From Gordonia insulae (GTDB taxonomy: Bacteria > Actinomycetota > Actinomycetes > Mycobacteriales > Mycobacteriaceae), in contig NZ_CP033972.1 of the NCBI RefSeq assembly GCF_003855095.1, positions 186,001-250,000 on the forward strand: a stretch of 64,000 nucleotides of DNA, given 5' to 3'. The position numbers and the translations under genes are program-made. Positions 1,448 through 11,488 of this stretch are shown piece after piece; the stretch's first letter is position 1, and the number at the start of each line of letters is the position of its first letter. The notes under the pieces are model-generated. The model was not told the DNA's origin, did not search any database, and worked only from the letters and a program-made list of their open reading frames with translations.

Positions 1448-2881
1448 TCAGCAGTCGTAGTAGAGCGCGAACTCGTACGGGTGCGGACGGATCTGCACCG
1501 GCTCGATCTCGTTCTCACGCTTGAGCGCGATCCAGGTCTCGATGAGGTCCTCGGTGAACACGCCACCGGCGGTGAGGTATTCGTGATCCTCTTCGAGCTT
1601 GTCGATGACGGCCGACAGTGAGGTCGGGGCCTGCGGGATGCCCTTGGCCTCCTCCGGCGGGAGCTCGTAGAGGTCCTTGTCGACGGGCTCGTGCGGCTCG
1701 ATCTTGTTCTTGATGCCGTCGAGGCCCGCCATCATCATCGCGGCGAACGCCAGGTACGGGTTGCCCGAGCTGTCCGGGCAACGGAACTCGAGACGCTTGG
1801 CCTTCGGGTTGTTGCCGGTGATCGGGATACGCACGCACGCGCTGCGGTTGCGCTGGCTGTACACCAGGTTGATCGGGGCCTCGTAGCCCGGCACCAGACG
1901 CTTGTAGGAGTTCACCGTCGGGTTGGTGAACGCCAGCAGCGACGGTGCGTGGTGCAGGATGCCGCCGATGTAGTAGCGCGCCAGATCCGACAGGCCCGCG
2001 TAGCCGGCCTCGTCGTGGAACAGCGGCTTGCCGTCCTTCCACAGCGACTGGTGGGCGTGCATGCCCGAGCCGTTGTCGCCGAACAGGGGCTTCGGCATGA
2101 AGGTGACGGTCTTGCCGTTCGCATACGCCGTGTTCTTGATGATGTATTTGAACAGCAGCACGTCGTCGGCGGCGTGCAGCAGCGTGTTGAACTTGTAGTT
2201 GATCTCCGCCTGACCGCCGGTGCCCACCTCGTGGTGACCGCGCTCGAGCTCGAAGCCCGCGTTGGTCAGATTGGTCGACATCTCGTCGCGCAGATCCACG
2301 TAGTGGTCGTACGGCGCGACGGGGAAGTATCCGCCCTTCGGACGGACCTTGTAACCGAGGTTCGGGCTGCCGTCCGGGTCGGTCGGCGAGCCGCTGTTCC
2401 ACCAGCCGGACTCCGACTCGACCTCGTAGAAGGTGCCGTTCATCTGGGAGTCGAAGGACACCGAGTCGAAGATGTAGAACTCGGCCTCGGCACCGAAGAA
2501 GCAGGTGTCGGCGACGCCGGTCGACGCCAGGTAGTCCTCGGCCTTGCGGGCGACGTTGCGCGGGTCGCGGCTGTAGGCCTCACGGGTGAACGGATCGTGG
2601 ACGAAGAAGCTGATGTTCATCGTCTTGGCCTTGCGGAAGGGGTCGATCCGCGCGGTGGCGGGGTCGGGCAGCAGCATCATGTCCGACTCGTCGATCGACT
2701 GGAAGCCGCGCACCGACGAACCGTCGAACGCCAGACCGTCCTCGAACACATCCTCGGTGAACGCCGTGGCCGGGATCGAGAAGTGCTGCATCACACCGGG
2801 CAGGTCACAGAAGCGGATGTCGACGTATTCGACGCCCTCTTTCTTGATGCCCTCGAGAAGTTCTTCTTTGCTGCTGTACAC
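1448..2881 (-). CDS. glnA: Glutamine synthetase, type I (GlnA1)
   Basis: The enzyme makes glutamine from glutamate, ammonia and ATP in the cytoplasm. The 477-aa length matches the mycobacterial GlnA1 size (about 478). Visible signatures are the N-terminal beta-grasp with DGSSVRGF, the Mn/Glu-binding [12 protein letters not shown], the [15 protein letters not shown] loop, and the adenylylation motif DLYELPPEE with its Tyr at about residue 405, so GlnE-type adenylylation control is expected. The start is GTG at 2881 behind AAGGAG. A GlnR-type box with -35 and -10 elements lies upstream, and a terminator hairpin follows. It stands next to an island holding a second, catabolic GlnA-like gene. Confidence 0.98.
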
Positions 2882-3194: not shown

Positions 3195-3314
3195 ATGCGT
3201 CGATGCACCATGTCCAGCACGCCGGGGCCCAACACACCTGGGCCCGGCACACCGGGGTCCACCACATCGCGGTCCAGCGCAGCCGGCCGACCCGGCCGGC
3301 GGGGTGACCGCTGA
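3195..3314 (+). CDS. Possible leaderless small ORF coupled to the RDD gene (39 aa)
   Basis: A -10 box TACCAT (3183-3188) is followed by 6 nt and an ATG, the leaderless layout seen repeatedly in this window. The frame encodes a Pro/Gly/Ser/Thr-rich peptide (TPGPNTPGPGTPG) and ends in TGA, which overlaps the ATG of the RDD gene as TGATG. It may be a real small protein, or a leader whose translation feeds ribosomes into the RDD gene. The rest of 2882-3194 holds only the glnA control region. Coding status is unproven. Confidence 0.4.
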   Translation: MRRCTMSSTPGPNTPGPGTPGSTTSRSSAAGRPGRRGDR

Positions 3315-3814
3315 TGGGGCGCGCGACCGGGTCCTGGCTGTCGGGTCCACAGATCGGACCGAGTGGCGGGGACGTCGACTATCGCGGGCAGGATCTCGGC
3401 CTGCCGGAATCCGGTCCGGGCGCGCTGGCGGGCGGATGGCAGCGCACCGCGGCACTGCTGGTCGACTGGTTGCTCGCGGGCGGGCTGTCGCTGTTGTTCG
3501 TGCCGTTCGGATCACCGACCCTGGGGACGACCGTGCTCGGCGTGTGGTTTGTCCTCGGCATCGTCGCGGTGACGTTCTTCGGGTTCACGCCCGGTCAGTT
3601 CGCGCTCGGTCTGCGTGTGGCACGCGTCGACTTCGGTCCGGAGCGGACCGAGGCGGAGGCGACCGGCAAGGCACCGTTCGCTGCCGTCGGCATCCTCCGC
3701 ACCCTCGGCCGTCAGGTGCTGATCGTGTTCCTGGTCCCGGCACTGATCAACGACTACAACGGTCGCGCCATGCACGATCGTGCGACCGGCACCGCGTTGG
3801 TGCGCACCCGCTGA
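3314..3814 (+). CDS. RDD family membrane protein
   Basis: This 166-aa protein has a soluble N-terminus (about residues 1-40) followed by an RDD-type domain. The first helix begins near WQRTAALLVDWLL, where Arg and Asp take the places of the family's namesake residues. A second helix lies around 73-90, then the characteristic GFTPGQFALGLRVARV turn, and a last helix around 126-145. RDD proteins are small membrane proteins of poorly defined transport function. From memory, M. tuberculosis has an RDD gene beside glnA1 in the same divergent orientation (Rv2219A). The start overlaps the stop of a small upstream ORF. Confidence 0.8.
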   Translation: MGRATGSWLSGPQIGPSGGDVDYRGQDLGLPESGPGALAGGWQRTAALLVDWLLAGGLSLLFVPFGSPTLGTTVLGVWFVLGIVAVTFFGFTPGQFALGLRVARVDFGPERTEAEATGKAPFAAVGILRTLGRQVLIVFLVPALINDYNGRAMHDRATGTALVRTR

Positions 3815-5401
3815 TCAGTCCGTCTTCCCCTTGAGGATCTCGTCCTCGATCGTCCCGCCGAGGCCTTCGGCTTCCGGATCGAACCCGTGCAGGCCGCCGG
3901 TCACCGCGTACTCCTCTTCCGGGGAGAGCACCAGCCGGTGGCGTCCGTAGAGGCCGAACACCAGCAGTCCGATCACGTAGAACACGACGATGGCGATCAC
4001 CGCGTCGCGGTAGTCCGGATTGATCAGCACGCCGATGAAGGTGATGGCCGCGATGACGAAGGCGACCACGGCACCCGCGACACCGGTCGGGCTCTTGTAC
4101 GGGCGGCGTGCGTTCGGGTACTTCCTCCGCAGGATGACGAACGAGATCATCTGCAGCATGTAGGCGAGCACCGCACCCCACACCGCGATGTTCAGAACGA
4201 TCGCTCCCGCACCGGAGATCCAGTACTCGATGACCAACAGGGCGACGAAGCCGATGACCGCACCCGCGATCAGCGCCACGTACGGTGTCCGCCGCGACCC
4301 GGTGAGCGACAGCACCTTCGGGTAGTAGCCGGCCCGGCTCAGCGAGTACAGGTTGCGGCCGTAGGCGTACATGATGCCCTGCAGGCTGGCGAGCAGTCCG
4401 ATCAGGGCGAAGGCCGACAGCACCGACGCCCAGCCGGACGGCAGGAAGGAACGGAAGCCGTCGAGCAGCGGCTCGTCGGAATCGCCGAGGGCGGCGGATC
4501 CGGTGACCGCGGGATTGAGGAAGAACACGATCGCCGCGCAGCCGACGAGGGTGACCATGCCCCAGATCCCGGCACGCGGGATGTCCTTGGTCGGTTCGTG
4601 CGCCTCCTCGGCGGCCAGCGGCAGTTCCTCGATGCCGAGGAAGAACCACATCGCGAAGGGCAGGGCATAGAGGATGCCCATCACGCCGAACGGCAGGAAG
4701 TCGCTCGCACCGGCCTTGGAGGTGTCCGGGTCGATGTCGAGGAGCTTGCCGAAGTCGACGGCGCCGTTGGCGATCGCCAGGATGCCGAAGAGCACGAGGA
4801 TGCCGATGGACACGACTGCGACGACGATGGCGAACTTGAACGACGCCTCGGCGCCCCACGAGTTCAACGCGATGAAGATGGCGTAGAGGATCAGCCACCA
4901 CACCCAGGCGGGCAGGCTCAGCCCGAACAGGTCGTCGGTGATCGCGTTGGCGTACGACGCGGAGAAGTAGACGACGACACCGGTGGTGAAGACGTATTCG
5001 ATGGTCTCGGCGAAGCCGGTGACGAAGCCGCCCCACGGGCCCATCGCCGCCCGCGCGAACGAGTAGGCGCCACCGGTGTGTGGCATGGCCGCCGACATCT
5101 CCCCGATGGAGAACAGCATGCCGAAGTACATGATGACGATGACCAGCGCGGCCACGCCGAGGCCACCCCACCCGGCCTGGCCGATGCCGTAGTTCCAGCC
5201 GGAGAAATCGCCGGAGATGACCGCGGCGATGCCGATGCCCCAGATCCCCCAGAACCCCGCACTGCGTTTGAGCTGTCGTTTCTCGAAGTAGCCGTCCTCG
5301 GCGTGGGTGTAGGTGGCGCCGGACGACTTCATCGCTCGTGTCGTCGCTGCCGGTGTCGAAGCTGCCGGTGTCGAAGCTGCCGGTGTCGAATCGTCTGCCA
5401 T
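3815..5401 (-). CDS. APC-family amine permease, ethanolamine (EAT) type
   Basis: This 528-aa inner-membrane transporter has about 12 hydrophobic segments and a soluble tail. Its first helix carries the text GIGIAAVISGDFSGWNYG, which closely resembles ethanolamine permeases of the EAT branch of the amino acid-polyamine-organocation family; PHTGGAYSFARAAMGPWGG is a typical APC TM3 stretch. It probably imports ethanolamine or a related amine by proton symport. The ATG at 5401 is chosen; the frame stays open upstream to 5518. The N-terminus holds three STPAA repeats. The gene is divergent from the glnA4-type operon and shares its control region. The substrate is inferred. Confidence 0.85.
   Translation of the reverse strand: MADDSTPAASTPAASTPAATTRAMKSSGATYTHAEDGYFEKRQLKRSAGFWGIWGIGIAAVISGDFSGWNYGIGQAGWGGLGVAALVIVIMYFGMLFSIGEMSAAMPHTGGAYSFARAAMGPWGGFVTGFAETIEYVFTTGVVVYFSASYANAITDDLFGLSLPAWVWWLILYAIFIALNSWGAEASFKFAIVVAVVSIGILVLFGILAIANGAVDFGKLLDIDPDTSKAGASDFLPFGVMGILYALPFAMWFFLGIEELPLAAEEAHEPTKDIPRAGIWGMVTLVGCAAIVFFLNPAVTGSAALGDSDEPLLDGFRSFLPSGWASVLSAFALIGLLASLQGIMYAYGRNLYSLSRAGYYPKVLSLTGSRRTPYVALIAGAVIGFVALLVIEYWISGAGAIVLNIAVWGAVLAYMLQMISFVILRRKYPNARRPYKSPTGVAGAVVAFVIAAITFIGVLINPDYRDAVIAIVVFYVIGLLVFGLYGRHRLVLSPEEEYAVTGGLHGFDPEAEGLGGTIEDEILKGKTD
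5346..5390. repeat. 15-bp tandem repeat (3 copies) in the permease N-terminus
   Basis: The unit GCTGCCGGTGTCGAA occurs three times head to tail at 5346, 5361 and 5376. It encodes STPAA repeats in the cytoplasmic N-terminus of the permease. The copies are identical, which suggests recent slippage and possible length variation between strains. Confidence 0.9.
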
Positions 5402-5627
5402 CACGATCTCGCTCTCGGTGGGGGCCGGATACACGCTCGCGGGCCGGCCCGGTCGGGTTCCACTGATAAGGCAGAATAGGACTCCAATGGTCGGTACACC
5501 CTCCTTTAAACGAAACATTCGGGTTAAATCGTGAGGTGGATCAGAGTTGATCGATCGTCCAATGGTTGACTGGACCGGTGAGCGACCTGCTGGTCACCAA
5601 GAAACCGACGGCTGCAGAGGAGTGTCG
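5402..5627. promoter_or_regulatory. Divergent control region of the gamma-glutamyl amine island
   Basis: This 226-bp gap separates the permease from the glnA4-type operon. The 9-mer TCCAATGGT occurs at 5483-5491 and again at 5558-5566; its core CCAATGG is a near-perfect palindrome. The second copy sits in a larger inverted repeat, GTCCA-N9-TGGAC (5557-5575). These are candidate sites for the GntR regulator encoded at the end of the operon. GAAAC-N6-GTTAA (5512-5527) resembles a partial GlnR b-a site pair. An unusually strong Shine-Dalgarno, AAAGGAGGG, lies on the minus strand at 5507-5499, about 100 nt before the permease ATG. All roles are inferred. Confidence 0.45.
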
Positions 5628-6989
5628 ATGACCGACGGCATGCTGGACATGACCGATCTGCAGGAACGCGTCATGGCCGACGAGGTCGACACGGTGATAG
5701 TCGCGTTCCCGGACATGCAGGGACGCCTCACCGGCAAGCGGGTGTCCGCACGACTGTTCCTCGACGACGTGGCGGCCCACGGGTCCGAATGCTGCAATTA
5801 TCTGCTGGCGGTCGACGTCGAGATGAACACCGTAGACGGCTACGCGATGTCGAGTTGGGACACCGGCTACGGCGACATGGTGATGACCCCCGACCTCTCC
5901 ACACTGCGCCTGATCCCGTGGCTGCCGGGGACCGCATTGGTGCTGGCGGATCTGAGCACCACGACCGGATCACCGGTCACCGTGGCGCCGCGCAGCATCC
6001 TGCGCCGCCAGATCGAGCGACTCGACCAGCGCGGTCTGGTGCCCTTCGTCGGCACCGAACTCGAGTTCATGGTGTTCGACAACACCTATCGCGAGGCGTG
6101 GGCCACGCGGTACCACGACCTCACACCCGCGACCGATTACAACGTCGACTACGCGATGCTCGCGTCGACGCGGATGGAGCCGCTGCTGCGCGACATCCGC
6201 CGGGGTATGAGCGGGGCCGGTCTCTACTGCGAGGGTGTGAAAGGGGAGTGCAACCTCGGTCAGCAGGAGATCGCCTTCCGCTATGACCACGCGCTGGTCA
6301 CCTGTGACAACCACACCATCTACCGCAACGGTGCCAAAGAGATCGCCGACCAACACGGCAAGAGCCTCACGTTCATGGCGAAGTTCGACGAGCGGGAGGG
6401 GAACAGCTGTCACATCCACATCTCGCTGCGCGGCGAGGACGGTACGCCGGTGTTCGCCGACGATTCGGCGCCGGACGGGATGTCGCCGATGTTCGGTCAT
6501 TTCATCGCGGGCATCCTCGCGTCACTGCGTGAGCTGTCACTGTGCTTCGCGCCGAACATCAACTCCTACAAGCGTTTCGTCGACGGAAGTTTCGCACCGA
6601 CGGCCATCGCCTGGGGCATGGACAACCGGACGTGCGCGCTCCGGGTGGTCGGGCACGGTGCCGGCATGCGCGTGGAGTGCCGGGCACCGGGCGGTGACGT
6701 CAACCAGTATCTGGCGGTGGCGGCGCTGATCGCGGCCGGCCTCGACGGCGTCGATCGGGAGTTGCCGTTGCCCGAGATCGCTTCGGGCAACGCCTATGTC
6801 GGGTCGGCGGAACGACTCCCGACCTCACTGGCGGAGGCCGCCGACCTCTTCGCCGGCTCGACGCTCGCCGCGACCGCCTTCGGACCGGACGTGGTGGAGC
6901 ACTACCTGAACAACGCGCGGGTCGAGCTCGCGGCATATGGTGCGGCGGTGACCGACTGGGAAAGGGTGCGTGGCTTTGAGCGACTCTGA
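5628..6989 (+). CDS. GlnA4-type gamma-glutamyl-amine ligase (glutamine synthetase-like)
   Basis: This 453-aa protein keeps the glutamine synthetase fold and active-site blocks: FVGTELEFMVFDN (metal and ATP binding), GNSCHIHISL, NINSYKRFVDGSFAPTAIAWG and RVECRAPGGDVNQYLAVAA. It lacks the LYELPPEE adenylylation motif of GlnA1. Relatives such as Streptomyces GlnA3 and GlnA4 attach glutamate to polyamines or ethanolamine instead of ammonia. The ATG at 5628 follows GAGGAG. Downstream genes overlap it as an operon (hydrolase, aldehyde dehydrogenase, SDR, regulator), the order I recall for M. tuberculosis glnA4 and its neighbours. The EAT-type permease points to ethanolamine; polyamines are the alternative. 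Confidence 0.85.
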   Translation: MTDGMLDMTDLQERVMADEVDTVIVAFPDMQGRLTGKRVSARLFLDDVAAHGSECCNYLLAVDVEMNTVDGYAMSSWDTGYGDMVMTPDLSTLRLIPWLPGTALVLADLSTTTGSPVTVAPRSILRRQIERLDQRGLVPFVGTELEFMVFDNTYREAWATRYHDLTPATDYNVDYAMLASTRMEPLLRDIRRGMSGAGLYCEGVKGECNLGQQEIAFRYDHALVTCDNHTIYRNGAKEIADQHGKSLTFMAKFDEREGNSCHIHISLRGEDGTPVFADDSAPDGMSPMFGHFIAGILASLRELSLCFAPNINSYKRFVDGSFAPTAIAWGMDNRTCALRVVGHGAGMRVECRAPGGDVNQYLAVAALIAAGLDGVDRELPLPEIASGNAYVGSAERLPTSLAEAADLFAGSTLAATAFGPDVVEHYLNNARVELAAYGAAVTDWERVRGFERL

Positions 6990-7731
6990 ACGGGACCGCA
7001 AGCCGGTCGTCGGGCTGACGACATATCTCGAACAGTCACGGACGGGCGTCTGGGACGTGCGGGCGAGTTTCCTGCCGCAGGTCTACTTCGACGGTGTCGC
7101 CCGCTCGGGCGGGATCGCCGTGCTGCTGCCCCCACAGCCGGTCGATGCGAGCGTGGCCGAACGCGTGGTCGACGGCCTGGACGCGCTGGTGCTGACCGGC
7201 GGGGTGGACGTGAACCCGGCGAGCTACCGGCAGGAGCCGCACCCGGAGACCGATCGCCCGCGGACCGACCGCGATGCCTGGGAGTTCGCACTGCTCGACG
7301 CCGCGCTGCGTCGTGGACTGCCGATCCTGGGCATCTGCCGCGGCATCCAGGTTCTCAACGTCGCGTTGGGTGGGACGCTGCACCAGCATCTGCCCGACAT
7401 CGTCGGGCATTCGCGTCACCGTGCCGGTAACGCGATCTTCAGTCCCACCGAGATCCAGATCGCCCCGGGCACTCGACTGGCGTCGCTGCTCGGCGATCAT
7501 GTCGACGCGCAGTGTTATCACCATCAGTCCGTCGACCGCGTTGCCGACGGACTGATCGTCAGCGCCCACGACGCGGACGGGCTGGTGGAGGCCGTCGAAC
7601 TCCCCGGTGACGATTTCGTCCTCGGCGTGCAATGGCATCCCGAGGAACGGCTCGACGACCTGCGGCTTTTCGCCGCGGTGGTCGACGCTGCGCGACTCCG
7701 GCTCGTGCGGGCCGAGGAGGTGGATGCATGA
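6970..7731 (+). CDS. PuuD-type gamma-glutamyl amide hydrolase (class I GATase, peptidase C26)
   Basis: This 253-aa hydrolase has the GATase1 fold, with the nucleophile elbow LGICRGIQVLNV (Cys at about 123) and the partner motif LGVQWHPEE (His about 223, Glu about 225). The family includes E. coli PuuD, which cleaves gamma-glutamyl-GABA. Here it should release glutamate from the oxidised gamma-glutamyl intermediate, recycling the activator. The GTG at 6970 overlaps the upstream gene by 20 nt and follows AAAGGG; TTG at 6976 is an alternative. Its stop overlaps the next ATG. Confidence 0.88.
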   Translation: MALSDSERDRKPVVGLTTYLEQSRTGVWDVRASFLPQVYFDGVARSGGIAVLLPPQPVDASVAERVVDGLDALVLTGGVDVNPASYRQEPHPETDRPRTDRDAWEFALLDAALRRGLPILGICRGIQVLNVALGGTLHQHLPDIVGHSRHRAGNAIFSPTEIQIAPGTRLASLLGDHVDAQCYHHQSVDRVADGLIVSAHDADGLVEAVELPGDDFVLGVQWHPEERLDDLRLFAAVVDAARLRLVRAEEVDA

Positions 7732-9122
7732 CGGTAGTCGATCTGATCAACCCGGCGACCGAGGAAGTCGTCACCACCGTGGACCTGCTCGACGAATCGG
7801 CGGTCGACGAGGCCGTCGCGACCGCGCATCGGGCGCAACGGATCTGGGCGGCGCTCTCTCCGGCCGCACGCGCCGCCGGACTGCGTGACCTCGCCGCGGC
7901 GGTGGACGGGAACCGAGACGAGCTCGCCGCTCTCGAGGTGGCGAACTCCGGTCATCCCATCGGCCAGGCGAGGTGGGAGGCCGAACACGTCCGTGACGTG
8001 CTGACCTTCTACTCGGCATCCCCGGAACGGTTGTCGGGCAAGCAGATCCCCGTGGCCGGCGGCATCGACATGACATTCTGCGACCCCATCGGCGTGGTCG
8101 GGATCATCACGCCGTGGAACTTCCCGATGACCATCGCGTCGTGGGGATTCGCTCCCGCACTGGCGGCGGGTAACGCGGTGATCGTCAAACCCGCCGAATG
8201 GACACCGCTCACCACCATCCGGCTCGCCGAGATCGCCGAGGAGGCGGGCCTGCCGCCCGGGCTGCTCCAGGTGGTGCCCGGGCGGGGCGATGTGGTGGGC
8301 GAGGCGATGCTCGGACATCCGGGTATCGGCAAGATCGTGTTCACGGGCTCCACCCGGACCGGACGGCACGTGATGACGCGGGCCGCGGAGTCGGTCAAGC
8401 GGATCACCCTCGAACTCGGCGGCAAGAGCGCCAACATCGTGTTCGCCGACTCCGACCTCGAGCAGGCGGCCGCGACCGCACCCTACGGCGTGTTCGACAA
8501 TGCCGGCCAGGACTGCTGCGCCCGGAGTCGAATCCTGGTGCAGCGCAGTGTCTACGACCGTTTCATGGAGTTGCTGGAGCCCGCCGTCGCGGGTGTGCGG
8601 GTGGGCGACCCGATCGACGACGCCACCGAGATGGGGCCGTTGGTGTCCCGGGCGCACTGGCAGAAGGTCGCGTCCTATGTCCCCGACGACGCGCCGGTCG
8701 CCTTCCGTGGCACCGCTCCCGAGGGGCCCGGCTTCTGGTTCCCGCCGACCGTGCTGACCCCACAGCCCAACGACCGGGCCGTGGTGGAGGAGATCTTCGG
8801 TCCGGTTGTCACCGTGCTGCCGTTCGACGACGAGGCGGACGCCATCGCGATCGCCAACGCCACCGAGTACGGGCTGGCCGGTTCCATCTGGACCGACGAT
8901 CTGTCGCGCGCGTTGCGGGTGTCGCGCGCCGTCGCCGCCGGGAACCTGTCGGTCAACTCGCATTCGTCGGTGCGGTACTCCACGCCGTTCGGCGGCTTCA
9001 AGCAGTCCGGACTGGGCCGCGAACTCGGACCTGATGCGCCACTGGGATTCACCGAGACCAAGAACGTCTTCATCGCCGTGGGTGCCGCGACGCCCGCGCA
9101 GAGCCAGAGAGGGACTTCATGA
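7728..9122 (+). CDS. NAD-dependent aldehyde dehydrogenase
   Basis: This 464-aa member of the aldehyde dehydrogenase superfamily has the proton-relay loop TPWNFPMTIASW, the NAD-binding FTGSTRTGRHV, the catalytic-base stretch LELGGKSAN, and the catalytic Cys in NAGQDCCARSR. It likely oxidises the gamma-glutamyl aldehyde to the acid within this amine pathway, analogous to PuuC or mycobacterial AldC (Rv2858c, from memory). It begins in an ATGA overlap with the hydrolase and ends in an ATGA overlap with the SDR gene, so the operon is tightly coupled. Confidence 0.9.
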   Translation: MTVVDLINPATEEVVTTVDLLDESAVDEAVATAHRAQRIWAALSPAARAAGLRDLAAAVDGNRDELAALEVANSGHPIGQARWEAEHVRDVLTFYSASPERLSGKQIPVAGGIDMTFCDPIGVVGIITPWNFPMTIASWGFAPALAAGNAVIVKPAEWTPLTTIRLAEIAEEAGLPPGLLQVVPGRGDVVGEAMLGHPGIGKIVFTGSTRTGRHVMTRAAESVKRITLELGGKSANIVFADSDLEQAAATAPYGVFDNAGQDCCARSRILVQRSVYDRFMELLEPAVAGVRVGDPIDDATEMGPLVSRAHWQKVASYVPDDAPVAFRGTAPEGPGFWFPPTVLTPQPNDRAVVEEIFGPVVTVLPFDDEADAIAIANATEYGLAGSIWTDDLSRALRVSRAVAAGNLSVNSHSSVRYSTPFGGFKQSGLGRELGPDAPLGFTETKNVFIAVGAATPAQSQRGTS

Positions 9123-9904
9123 GCAACACAGTCGATCTGACCCGACGGCTCGGCGGCCGGGTCGCCGTCGTGACCGGCGGCGGCAGCGGCATCGGCCTGG
9201 CGTCGGCGCGACGCATGCATGCCGAGGGGGCGACGATCGTCATCGGTGATCTGGATCCGGATGCGGGCAAACGCGCCGCCGACGACGTCGACGGGCTCTT
9301 CGTCCCCGTCGACGTGGCGGATCAGGGGCAGGTGGACGAGCTGTTCGACACCGCCGCACAGAGATTCGGTTCTGTCGACATCGCCTTCAACAACGCGGGG
9401 ATCTCGCCGCCCGACGACGACCTCATCGAGAACACCGATCTCGATGCGTGGCAGCGGGTGCAGTCGGTCAATCTCAACTCGGTCTTCTTCTCCTGCAAGG
9501 CCGCCCTGCGGCACATGACCGCGGCGGGCAAGGGCTCGATCGTCAACACCGCGTCGTTCGTGGCGGTCATGGGGTCGGCGACGTCGCAGATCTCCTACAC
9601 CGCATCCAAGGGCGGCGTGCTGGCCATGTCACGGGAACTCGGTGTGCAGTATGCGCGGCAGGGCATCCGGGTCAACGCGTTGTGCCCGGGACCGGTGAAC
9701 ACGCCGCTGCTGAAGGAGTTGTTCGCCAAGGACCCGGAGCGGGCCGCCCGTCGGCTGGTACACGTGCCAGTGGGCCGGTTCGCCGAGCCGGAGGAATTGG
9801 CCGCGGCGGTCGCGTTCCTGGCCAGCGACGACGCGTCGTTCATCACCGGATCGACGTTCCTGGTCGACGGTGGCATCAGCTCCGCCTACGTGACCCCGCT
9901 GTAG
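9119..9904 (+). CDS. Short-chain dehydrogenase/reductase of the amine island
   Basis: This 261-aa classical SDR has the cofactor motif VTGGGSGIGLASARR near residue 18, NNAG, the YTASK active-site pair, and the C-terminal ITGSTFLVDGG. Generic annotation would be 3-oxoacyl-ACP reductase, but the operon suggests another job. With an ethanolamine-derived substrate, an alcohol dehydrogenase is needed to turn gamma-glutamylethanolamide into the aldehyde used by the upstream dehydrogenase. I recall an equivalent SDR (Rv2857c) beside M. tuberculosis glnA4. The substrate is inferred. Confidence 0.88.
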   Translation: MSNTVDLTRRLGGRVAVVTGGGSGIGLASARRMHAEGATIVIGDLDPDAGKRAADDVDGLFVPVDVADQGQVDELFDTAAQRFGSVDIAFNNAGISPPDDDLIENTDLDAWQRVQSVNLNSVFFSCKAALRHMTAAGKGSIVNTASFVAVMGSATSQISYTASKGGVLAMSRELGVQYARQGIRVNALCPGPVNTPLLKELFAKDPERAARRLVHVPVGRFAEPEELAAAVAFLASDDASFITGSTFLVDGGISSAYVTPL

Positions 9905-9911
9905 GAGTCCG

Positions 9912-10655
9912 ATGACCTCGGCCCACTCCGAACAGCTCGCCGACGCACTGCTGGCGCCGGTCCGTCCGGCGAATGCCTTCGAGGAGACGGTCGGCAGGCT
10001 GCTGCAGCTGATCCGGCTGGGGGTGTTCGGACCGGGCGAGTCGATCCCGCCGGAACGGGAGCTCGCGGTGCGACTGGGGGTCAGTCGCGACACGCTGCGG
10101 GAGGCGATCCGCGCCCTGGCCGACGCCGGATTCCTGGTGTCGCGGCGTGGCCGCTACGGCGGGACATTTCTCGCCGAGGTCCTGCCGGCGCCGGGCTCCG
10201 TCGATCACTCCGACCTGGCGGCCGAGGCGGAGCCGATCACCCGCGCCGAACTCGACGACGCCCTCCGGGTCCGGGAGATCCTCGAGGTCGGCGCTGCGCG
10301 CATGGCGGCAGGCCGGACGTTCTCGGCCGCCGAACGTGAATCCCTGTGGACCCGACTCACCGACATCCGCGTGGCCGTCGGCGACGATTACCGTCGGCTC
10401 GACTCCCGGCTGCACCTCGCGATCGCGGAGGCCGCCGGGGCGCCGTCCGTCGTCGCGCTGGTGGCCGACAACCGGATGCGGATCAACCGCCTGCTCGATC
10501 GCATTCCGCAGCTCGAGCGCAACATCGCGCACTCGGAGGAACAGCACGAGGCGATCGTCATCGCGATCCTCACCGGCAACGCCGATGCGGCCGCCGTCGC
10601 GATGCGCGCACATGTCGAGGGCACCGCGACGCTGTTGCACGGCTTCCTGGACTGA
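9912..10655 (+). CDS. FadR-subfamily GntR transcriptional regulator
   Basis: This 247-aa regulator has an N-terminal winged helix-turn-helix (about residues 22-85; LGVSRDTLREAIRALADAGF is the recognition helix) and a helical FCD ligand-binding domain. It is the last gene of the island, 7 nt after the SDR stop, with AGGAG before its ATG. It probably controls the divergent promoters at 5402-5627, where two copies of TCCAATGGT lie. The ligand could be the amine or a gamma-glutamyl intermediate; this is not visible in the sequence. Confidence 0.9.
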   Translation: MTSAHSEQLADALLAPVRPANAFEETVGRLLQLIRLGVFGPGESIPPERELAVRLGVSRDTLREAIRALADAGFLVSRRGRYGGTFLAEVLPAPGSVDHSDLAAEAEPITRAELDDALRVREILEVGAARMAAGRTFSAAERESLWTRLTDIRVAVGDDYRRLDSRLHLAIAEAAGAPSVVALVADNRMRINRLLDRIPQLERNIAHSEEQHEAIVIAILTGNADAAAVAMRAHVEGTATLLHGFLD

Positions 10656-10667
10656 GCCGGCGTCAGA

Positions 10668-11405
10668 TCAGCTGCGGCGGCGCGCGGTGCGTTGCATGCC
10701 CCGCACCTTGGCATTGCCCGGCAGTGGGCCCTTGGGCACCCCGGGTCCCGGGGCCTTGCCGCCGAGCGCGGCGAGCCTGCCCTCGAGGGCGTCGATCCGC
10801 TTGCCGTCGATGTTCTTGGGCAGCTTGTTGATGTGTCGCTCGAGCTTGCTCAGCGGAACCTGGCCGTCGTCGTTGCCGACGACGATCTCGTAGATCGGGG
10901 TGTCGCCGACAACGCGTGCGACCTTCTTCTTTTCTTGGGACAGAAGCGTTCTGACGCGGGTGGGCGACCCCTCGGCGACCAGGATCACGCCCGGTTTGCC
11001 GATCACCCGGTGCACGGCGTCGAGGTGGGCGTTGCCCGACACCGCCTGCTTGACGCGCCACTGGCCACGCATGTTGCCGAGGGCCCAACCCGCTGCGCCG
11101 GCCTGTCCCTCCGCCTTCGTGTAGACGGTGCGCTGCACCCGACGGCCGAACAGGATGAAGGCGGCGAGCAGGCCCAGCACGATACCCAGCGGCAGCAGCA
11201 GCCAGACCGAACCGAAGACGAAACCGAGCACGACGAAGACCGCGACGATGGCGACGAACAGGCCGACCATGTACGGGATGAGCCGCTTGTCTTCCTTGCG
11301 CTGCATCTGGAAGGCCTGCCACAGCTGCTGGCGCCTCTCCTTGGACGCCTGCCTCCGGGCCTTCTTTGCTGCGGCCTTCGCCTCTTTGTCTTGCGCCTTT
11401 GCCAT
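10668..11405 (-). CDS. DUF4191 family membrane protein
   Basis: This 245-aa protein has a highly charged Lys/Arg/Ala-rich N-terminus (residues 1-45), two adjacent transmembrane helices (about 48-70 and 72-92), then a soluble domain and a basic C-terminal tail. It corresponds to M. tuberculosis Rv2219 (about 250 aa), which likewise sits next to lipA. Function is unknown. The ATG at 11405 is supported by a -10 box TAAACT 7 nt upstream, so it is probably leaderless and separate from the lipA transcript. Confidence 0.85.
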   Translation of the reverse strand: MAKAQDKEAKAAAKKARRQASKERRQQLWQAFQMQRKEDKRLIPYMVGLFVAIVAVFVVLGFVFGSVWLLLPLGIVLGLLAAFILFGRRVQRTVYTKAEGQAGAAGWALGNMRGQWRVKQAVSGNAHLDAVHRVIGKPGVILVAEGSPTRVRTLLSQEKKKVARVVGDTPIYEIVVGNDDGQVPLSKLERHINKLPKNIDGKRIDALEGRLAALGGKAPGPGVPKGPLPGNAKVRGMQRTARRRS

Positions 11406-11412
11406 GGTGCCC

Positions 11413-11418
11413 AGTTTA
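11413..11418 (-). promoter_or_regulatory. -10 box TAAACT, leaderless DUF4191 gene
   Basis: TAAACT on the minus strand lies 7 nt before the ATG at 11405, the usual distance for a transcript starting at the start codon. Confidence 0.6.
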
Positions 11419-11488
11419 CGTCGCAGGGTTGCGCGCCGGACGAGACGGTCGAACTCGATCCCGACCGGGGCCTTCGAGCGGGTGGCGC

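Follow-up and report, generated by a model that had tools for sequence, protein, structure and literature searches.

In Streptomyces coelicolor, the ligase GlnA4 glutamylates ethanolamine, for which it is reported to be specific, and is needed for growth on ethanolamine; its gene is repressed by the regulator EpuRI (Krysenko 2019, PMC6529630). The order of steps proposed to follow is a dehydrogenase (SCO1611), then an aldehyde dehydrogenase (SCO1612), then hydrolysis by SCO1615 (PMC6529630), and the same scheme is repeated in a 2022 review (PMC9397018). In Phaeobacter, enzymes have been assigned to the same steps and are induced on phosphatidylethanolamine (2023, PMC10132767), and for Chromohalobacter and Agrobacterium the same paper refers to Vetting 2015. 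Here, we describe a six-gene island in a 64 kb stretch of the Gordonia insulae chromosome (NZ_CP033972.1 positions 186,001-250,000; termed the window, with positions within it used throughout) that is very probably an ethanolamine utilization cluster of the GlnA4/EpuRI type. An earlier sequence-only reading of this DNA had put forward a route through a short-chain dehydrogenase/reductase (SDR), an aldehyde dehydrogenase (ALDH), and a hydrolase; that route is not new, because it is stated in Krysenko 2019 and assigned in Phaeobacter. The new elements are a likely operator for the cluster and a half-lost eut locus in the same genome.

The island occupies positions 3815-10655. An Eat-like (ethanolamine permease family) APC permease of 528 amino acids, encoded on the minus strand (3815-5401), is divergent from a plus-strand operon that begins with a GlnA4-type gamma-glutamyl ligase, the predicted gamma-glutamylethanolamide synthetase (5628-6989; PF00120). 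This is followed by a peptidase C26/class I GATase hydrolase, predicted to be a gamma-glutamylglycine amidohydrolase (6970-7731; PF07722, 236 bits), an ALDH, predicted to act on gamma-glutamyl-aminoacetaldehyde (7728-9122; PF00171, 519 bits), an SDR, predicted to be an NAD-dependent gamma-glutamylethanolamide dehydrogenase (9119-9904; NF004713, 501 bits, cut-off 404), and a GntR/FCD (FadR-type) regulator, the predicted repressor (9912-10655; PF00392 and PF07729). Family profile matches and reading frames bear out all six genes of the sequence-only reading, each in its place. The operon is compact, with overlaps of 20 bp between ligase and hydrolase and of 4 bp at both the hydrolase/ALDH and ALDH/SDR junctions, and the regulator starts 7 bp past the end of the SDR gene. 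The ligase start is taken as the ATG at 5628, which has GAGGAG ahead of it, in place of the TTG at 5547 that opens the mechanically called reading frame; similarity to relatives starts only at about 5637. The permease has an alternative upstream ATG at 5518.

The arrangement of these genes recurs in relatives. Of 80 named relatives, the best of 577 relatives and thus an uneven sample, 68 had enough flanking sequence to be read and 12 were dropped. The gene layout is not due to chance, because hydrolase, ALDH, and SDR genes follow the ligase in all 68 of these loci. Of these loci, 52 carry the regulator and 43 the permease; every permease carrier also has the regulator, giving 43 loci with all six genes together. 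Seven genomes of one genus, regarded as Streptomyces-like because of their size (7.1-9.4 Mb) and gene layout, all contain the ligase, ALDH, SDR, regulator, and hydrolase, with the permease in five. A sample of 151 genomes from the family contains a relative of the ligase (E <= 1e-60) in 29, with 21 of these at least about 60% identical. Two of these ligase-ALDH-SDR clusters (L060 and L061) have no detected C26 hydrolase, and another hydrolase may carry out the last step in them. As a separate observation, three Actinomycetes with genomes of 1.3-1.5 Mb (L235, L236, and L237) keep the ligase and ALDH, with a close SDR in two of the three; the 17 kb of sequence examined revealed neither a hydrolase nor a permease nor a regulator.

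Several features of the ligase place it with GlnA4. Residues E144, E146, E207, E214, E257, G258, H262, H264, R316, F322, R339, E350, and R352 match the list published for SCO1613 (GlnA4) in spacing, with one three-residue change of offset, and none of the 13 varies across 99 related loci (19 from the family sample and 80 named, with one genome possibly in both sets). Phe322 occupies the position of the Glu327 flap of glutamine synthetase. Against the model for type I glutamine synthetase (TIGR00653) the protein scores 219 bits, below the cut-off of 429. Among solved structures the best matches are 11zs and 5dm3 (about 418 bits); 4hpp, the P. aeruginosa gamma-glutamyl mono/polyamine synthetase PauA7 (Krysenko 2019, PMC6529630), scores 77 bits. 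Catalytic residues of the downstream enzymes are similarly conserved: the Cys123-His223-Glu225 triad of the hydrolase is kept in 95 of 95 aligned loci, Glu229 of the ALDH in 95 of 96 and its Cys263/Cys264 in 94 of 96, and Ser146/Tyr160/Lys164 of the SDR in 93 of 94. Asp44 of the SDR, present in 94 of 94 loci, lies at the cofactor-specificity position, which suggests that the probable cofactor is NAD, as expected of an oxidizing enzyme.

The permease scores 361.2 bits on the ethanolamine permease equivalog TIGR00908 (cut-off 381.75), a model on which the permeases encoded immediately ahead of eutB in two relatives reach 527 and 550 bits. The island permease shares 40-42% identity with the permeases encoded in this position in three relatives. 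The use of related permeases in two otherwise unrelated catabolic routes provides independent support for ethanolamine as the substrate. The N-terminal tail of the permease contains a simple repeat, with three perfect 15-bp tandem copies at 5346-5390 (GCTGCCGGTGTCGAA, read by eye) coding for repeated STPAA.

Outside the window, the genome has its own eat-eutBC locus, at about 3666970-3669330 of the chromosome (L071:6970-9330), and it has decayed. The eutC gene is intact (PRK05465, 297 bits, cut-off 230), eutB is broken into three reading frames whose pieces are 82-94% identical to an intact Gordonia EutB, and upstream of it there is a permease remnant of about the last 60 residues in two frames. 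Sequencing error is an unlikely source of the broken eutB because the upstream permease is likewise reduced to its C-terminal end. A carboxylase-like gene (TIGR01117 match below cut-off) is located upstream of the locus. The sequence-only reading had described an ethanolamine path without Eut enzymes; this holds for EutB and the Eat permease, whose genes have decayed, and fails for EutC, which is intact elsewhere in the genome. Here, EutBC has apparently been replaced by the island.

The occurrence of EutB and of the ligase was also compared across genomes. Nine Gordonia genomes encode a close ligase (at least 78%), and EutB is intact in three of them, broken in one (this genome), and not found in five. 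By comparison, EutB is present in 25 of 27 ligase-free Gordonia genomes of at least 4.8 Mb, a size cut picked after the data were seen (p = 0.001 against intact copies in three of nine island-bearing genomes, or p = 0.006 when the broken copy is scored as present). In the family sample, with counts taken by hand and one of the 21 ligase-bearing genomes (G014) 66% complete, EutB occurs in 6 of the 21 (7 with the broken copy of this genome) versus 91 of 130 others (p = 0.0004, or 0.002). Across a sample of 394 genomes from the class, the ligase (E <= 1e-140) is found in 187 and a match to EutB in 51; these matches fall in 35 of 207 ligase-negative and 16 of 187 ligase-positive genomes, with the overlap counted by hand. 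One of the 16 is the broken copy of this genome and another (G465) is a 29-residue piece below cut-off. This EutB-like piece, at G465:C107:78987-79073 in a ligase-bearing genome, is possibly the remnant of a lost eutB.

The position of the island also recurs. It sits between a gene for an RDD membrane protein (3314-3814, plus strand; PF06271), whose end abuts the stop of the permease gene, and a DUF4191 gene, for which positions 10668-11450, not beginning at a start codon, were used as a marker only. Beyond the RDD gene, which is next to DUF4191 in island-free species, lies glnA1 (1448-2881, minus strand), encoding a true type I glutamine synthetase (TIGR00653, 681 bits, cut-off 429). A survey of 30 loci around DUF4191, from 30 of 59 Gordonia genomes, gave 18 in which the RDD and DUF4191 genes are close together with no island, 8 that contain the island, and 4 in which the flank showed no RDD gene. 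Seven of the eight island-bearing sites were recognized by the SDR and regulator beside DUF4191, and the eighth is that of G. soli; the draft genome of a further Gordonia (G157) has the ligase on another contig. Among the best 80 named relatives, the island lies between glnA1/RDD and DUF4191/lipA only in G. soli and G. rhizosphera. The earlier description of the island as inserted beside glnA1 is thus borne out by a site that is empty in most of the surveyed loci, and 'inserted' is a fair word for it, with gain and loss inseparable without a tree.

The regulator is 44-47% identical to the one divergent from the ligase in the Streptomyces-like genomes, which is in the position of EpuRI; its nearest named homologues are from Gordonia, and the M. 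smegmatis homologue stands at 73%. S. coelicolor EpuRI shifted promoter fragments of both glnA4 and epuRI (PMC8998196). The passages of that paper that were consulted give no consensus for EpuRI, and the titles and abstract openings of literature on EpuRI and a motif contain no definition of a binding site. Among 57 regulator-bearing upstream regions (56 from named loci, plus the window) searched for gapped palindromes, 15 contained AGGT-N10-ACCT, compared with at most 5 in 10 shuffles. When sites were scored by the pattern WWWGGT-N10-ACCWWW with a threshold of at least 20, omitting 6 of 79 named loci that had a contig end or an unjudgeable neighbour, 36 of the 56 loci with the regulator had a site and none of the 17 without it did, a comparison that is partly circular in that the motif was derived from the same regulator-bearing loci. 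All 17 regulator-free loci are from mycobacteria, in which the site is found in 11 of 11 loci with the regulator. At the same threshold, shuffled sequences gave 37 of 1580 and stretches internal to the ligase gene 3 of 237.

The 36 sites, with the window's own site left out, were turned into a weight matrix, which ranked positions 5486-5507 top in the 64 kb window with a score of 23.5; the runner-up, in the same spacer, scored 13.1 and no place elsewhere exceeded 10.5. Nothing comparable was found at the genome's eut locus, where the best score was 13.9, about 5 kb from eutB. In the regulator-ligase spacers of the Streptomyces-like genomes, which were not used in motif finding, a site was present in seven of seven and 0 of 100 shuffles of each were as good. 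The 59 Gordonia genomes were also scanned with a strict pattern, one position of which was widened to admit the window's own site. It matched just upstream of the ligase in eight of nine island-bearing genomes, with a near match there in the ninth (G193). Away from this position, it matched three times in island genomes and 14 times in the remaining 50, spread over 11 of them. This background is at chance level, because the same pattern written backwards matched as often (17 places in those 50 genomes, and 24 in all 59). The 5.96 Mb genome described here has a single match, at 5486-5507, as does the backwards control. The 22-bp palindromic site between permease and ligase (AATGGTCGGTACACCCTCCTTT, no strand assigned) is conserved and tied to the presence of the regulator, and from its sequence we predict that it is the operator of an EpuRI-like repressor.

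Taken together, these observations favour, with moderate confidence, a wider picture in which, within Gordonia, the B12-dependent eat-eutBC system is giving way to a B12-free gamma-glutamyl island that occupies a fixed site next to glnA1 and brings an Eat-like permease of its own, with this genome halfway, and in which GntR-bearing clusters across the class are under one kind of 22-bp EpuRI-type operator. Some findings weigh against this picture or against the assignment of the cluster itself. Without a size cut, EutB is found in 31 of 50 ligase-free Gordonia genomes and the difference is not significant (p = 0.15, or 0.46 with the broken copy as present), and both the genus and family tests ignore kinship. 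Strict mutual exclusion of EutB and ligase is rejected by the 16 class genomes that match both. A site at the chosen score is missing from 20 of the 56 named loci with the regulator, and a one-operator regulon may be too simple because EpuRI in S. coelicolor bound other promoters too (PMC8998196). Nitrogen control by GlnR may act on top of the regulator, since growth of M. smegmatis on ethanolamine is GlnR-dependent (PMC4222082); glnA-like promoters are reported not to be bound by GlnR, and the M. smegmatis GlnA4 homologue not to be GlnR-regulated (Krysenko 2019, PMC6529630). In addition, the ligase is under the cut-off of every one of the four NCBIfam models that it matches, and the permease, 20 bits short of the TIGR00908 cut-off, is homologous to the equivalog yet outside it.

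The assignment to ethanolamine, which the sequence-only reading had considered probable, is supported by the Eat-type permease, the GlnA4 residues, the same genes in Streptomyces-like genomes, and the decayed EutBC. The enzyme set demands only a primary alcohol on the amine, and together with the slightly low score of the permease this would also suit a gamma-glutamyl route for another short amino alcohol or amine, such as 3-aminopropanol or the alaninol/isopropylamine of the Ipu pathway, with ethanolamine as a side substrate. We consider this improbable: the permease is homologous to those directly upstream of eutB, eut has decayed in this genome, and in Streptomyces the ligase belonging to this gene set is reported to be specific for ethanolamine (PMC6529630). 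A Puu-like route for putrescine or spermidine would fit the matches of the hydrolase and ALDH to the PuuD (PRK11366) and PuuC models, although both are under the cut-offs. However, the ligase reaches 203 bits on the gamma-glutamylputrescine synthetase (PuuA) model, for which the cut-off is 650, a family profile search identified no amine oxidase or aminotransferase among the six genes, and all 68 named relatives with sufficient flank encode an SDR; polyamines were rejected as the substrate and are very unlikely to be it.

The SDR itself passes NF004713, which bears the name '3-oxoacyl-ACP reductase', and could on that account be an acyl-ACP reductase outside the pathway. Its gene, however, lies downstream of the ALDH gene in 68 of 68 loci, with the 4-bp overlap in the window, and the invariant Asp at the cofactor-specificity position points to NAD and not to NADPH as in FabG. 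This role was also rejected, as one with very little probability, and the name of NF004713 is probably a misnomer for this protein given its constant place in the cluster.

For the substrates used in this host, the reactions of the SDR, ALDH, and hydrolase, and the binding of repressor to operator, we infer the following ethanolamine pathway. The permease would import ethanolamine, which the ligase would couple to glutamate with ATP to give gamma-glutamylethanolamide. The SDR, with NAD+, would oxidize the alcohol of this intermediate to an aldehyde, the ALDH would convert the aldehyde to gamma-glutamylglycine, and the C26 hydrolase would release glutamate and glycine. From these proposed reactions, the net effect would be conversion of ethanolamine to glycine with glutamate recycled, at the cost of one ATP and with a gain of two NADH. 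The GntR/FCD protein, bound to the one 22-bp operator at 5486-5507, would repress both divergent transcripts until derepressed by an inducer, which may be ethanolamine or its gamma-glutamyl derivative, gamma-glutamylethanolamide. In this genome, the island would handle ethanolamine in place of the decayed eat-eutBC.

The gamma-glutamyl route saves B12 and does not pass through free acetaldehyde. It may be the more common of the ethanolamine routes in this class, with the ligase in 187 and EutB in 51 of 394 genomes and the gene neighbours checked in a part of the ligase-bearing ones only. The half-decayed eut locus provides a natural case of pathway replacement, and with the operator candidate the EpuRI regulon can be tested from sequence.

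The island can be compared with several known systems. The Puu putrescine pathway of E. coli uses the same logic of gamma-glutamylation, ALDH, and C26 hydrolase, with an FAD amine oxidase. The island differs from it in having an SDR in place of that oxidase, no aminotransferase, and a ligase far below the PuuA model. The same four enzymatic steps are found in the ETAGA/GETADH/GAADDH/GGAH operon of Phaeobacter sp. MED193 and in the Chromohalobacter salexigens pathway; the Phaeobacter operon has a TRAP transporter and an RpiR regulator, whereas the window has an APC permease and a GntR/FCD protein (PMC10132767). The short actinobacterial eat-eutBC operon (PMC9397018) shares the substrate and a homologous permease (the 40-42% identity given above), but uses a B12-dependent lyase and enzymes unrelated to those of the island, and is the system that has decayed in this genome. 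The closest relative is the GlnA4/EpuRI cluster of S. coelicolor (SCO1610-1615, PMC6529630), which shares the ligase, ALDH, SDR, amidotransferase-type hydrolase, and regulator, has the same proposed chemistry, and agrees in the ligase residues at the listed positions; the permease of the island has a counterpart in other Streptomyces clusters (PMC6529630). The layout differs, in that the operon in the window ends with the regulator and includes the hydrolase, unlike the Streptomyces-like loci, where regulator, hydrolase, and permease (where found) are divergent from ligase-ALDH-SDR, in agreement with the gene list in the Figure 2 legend of PMC6529630.

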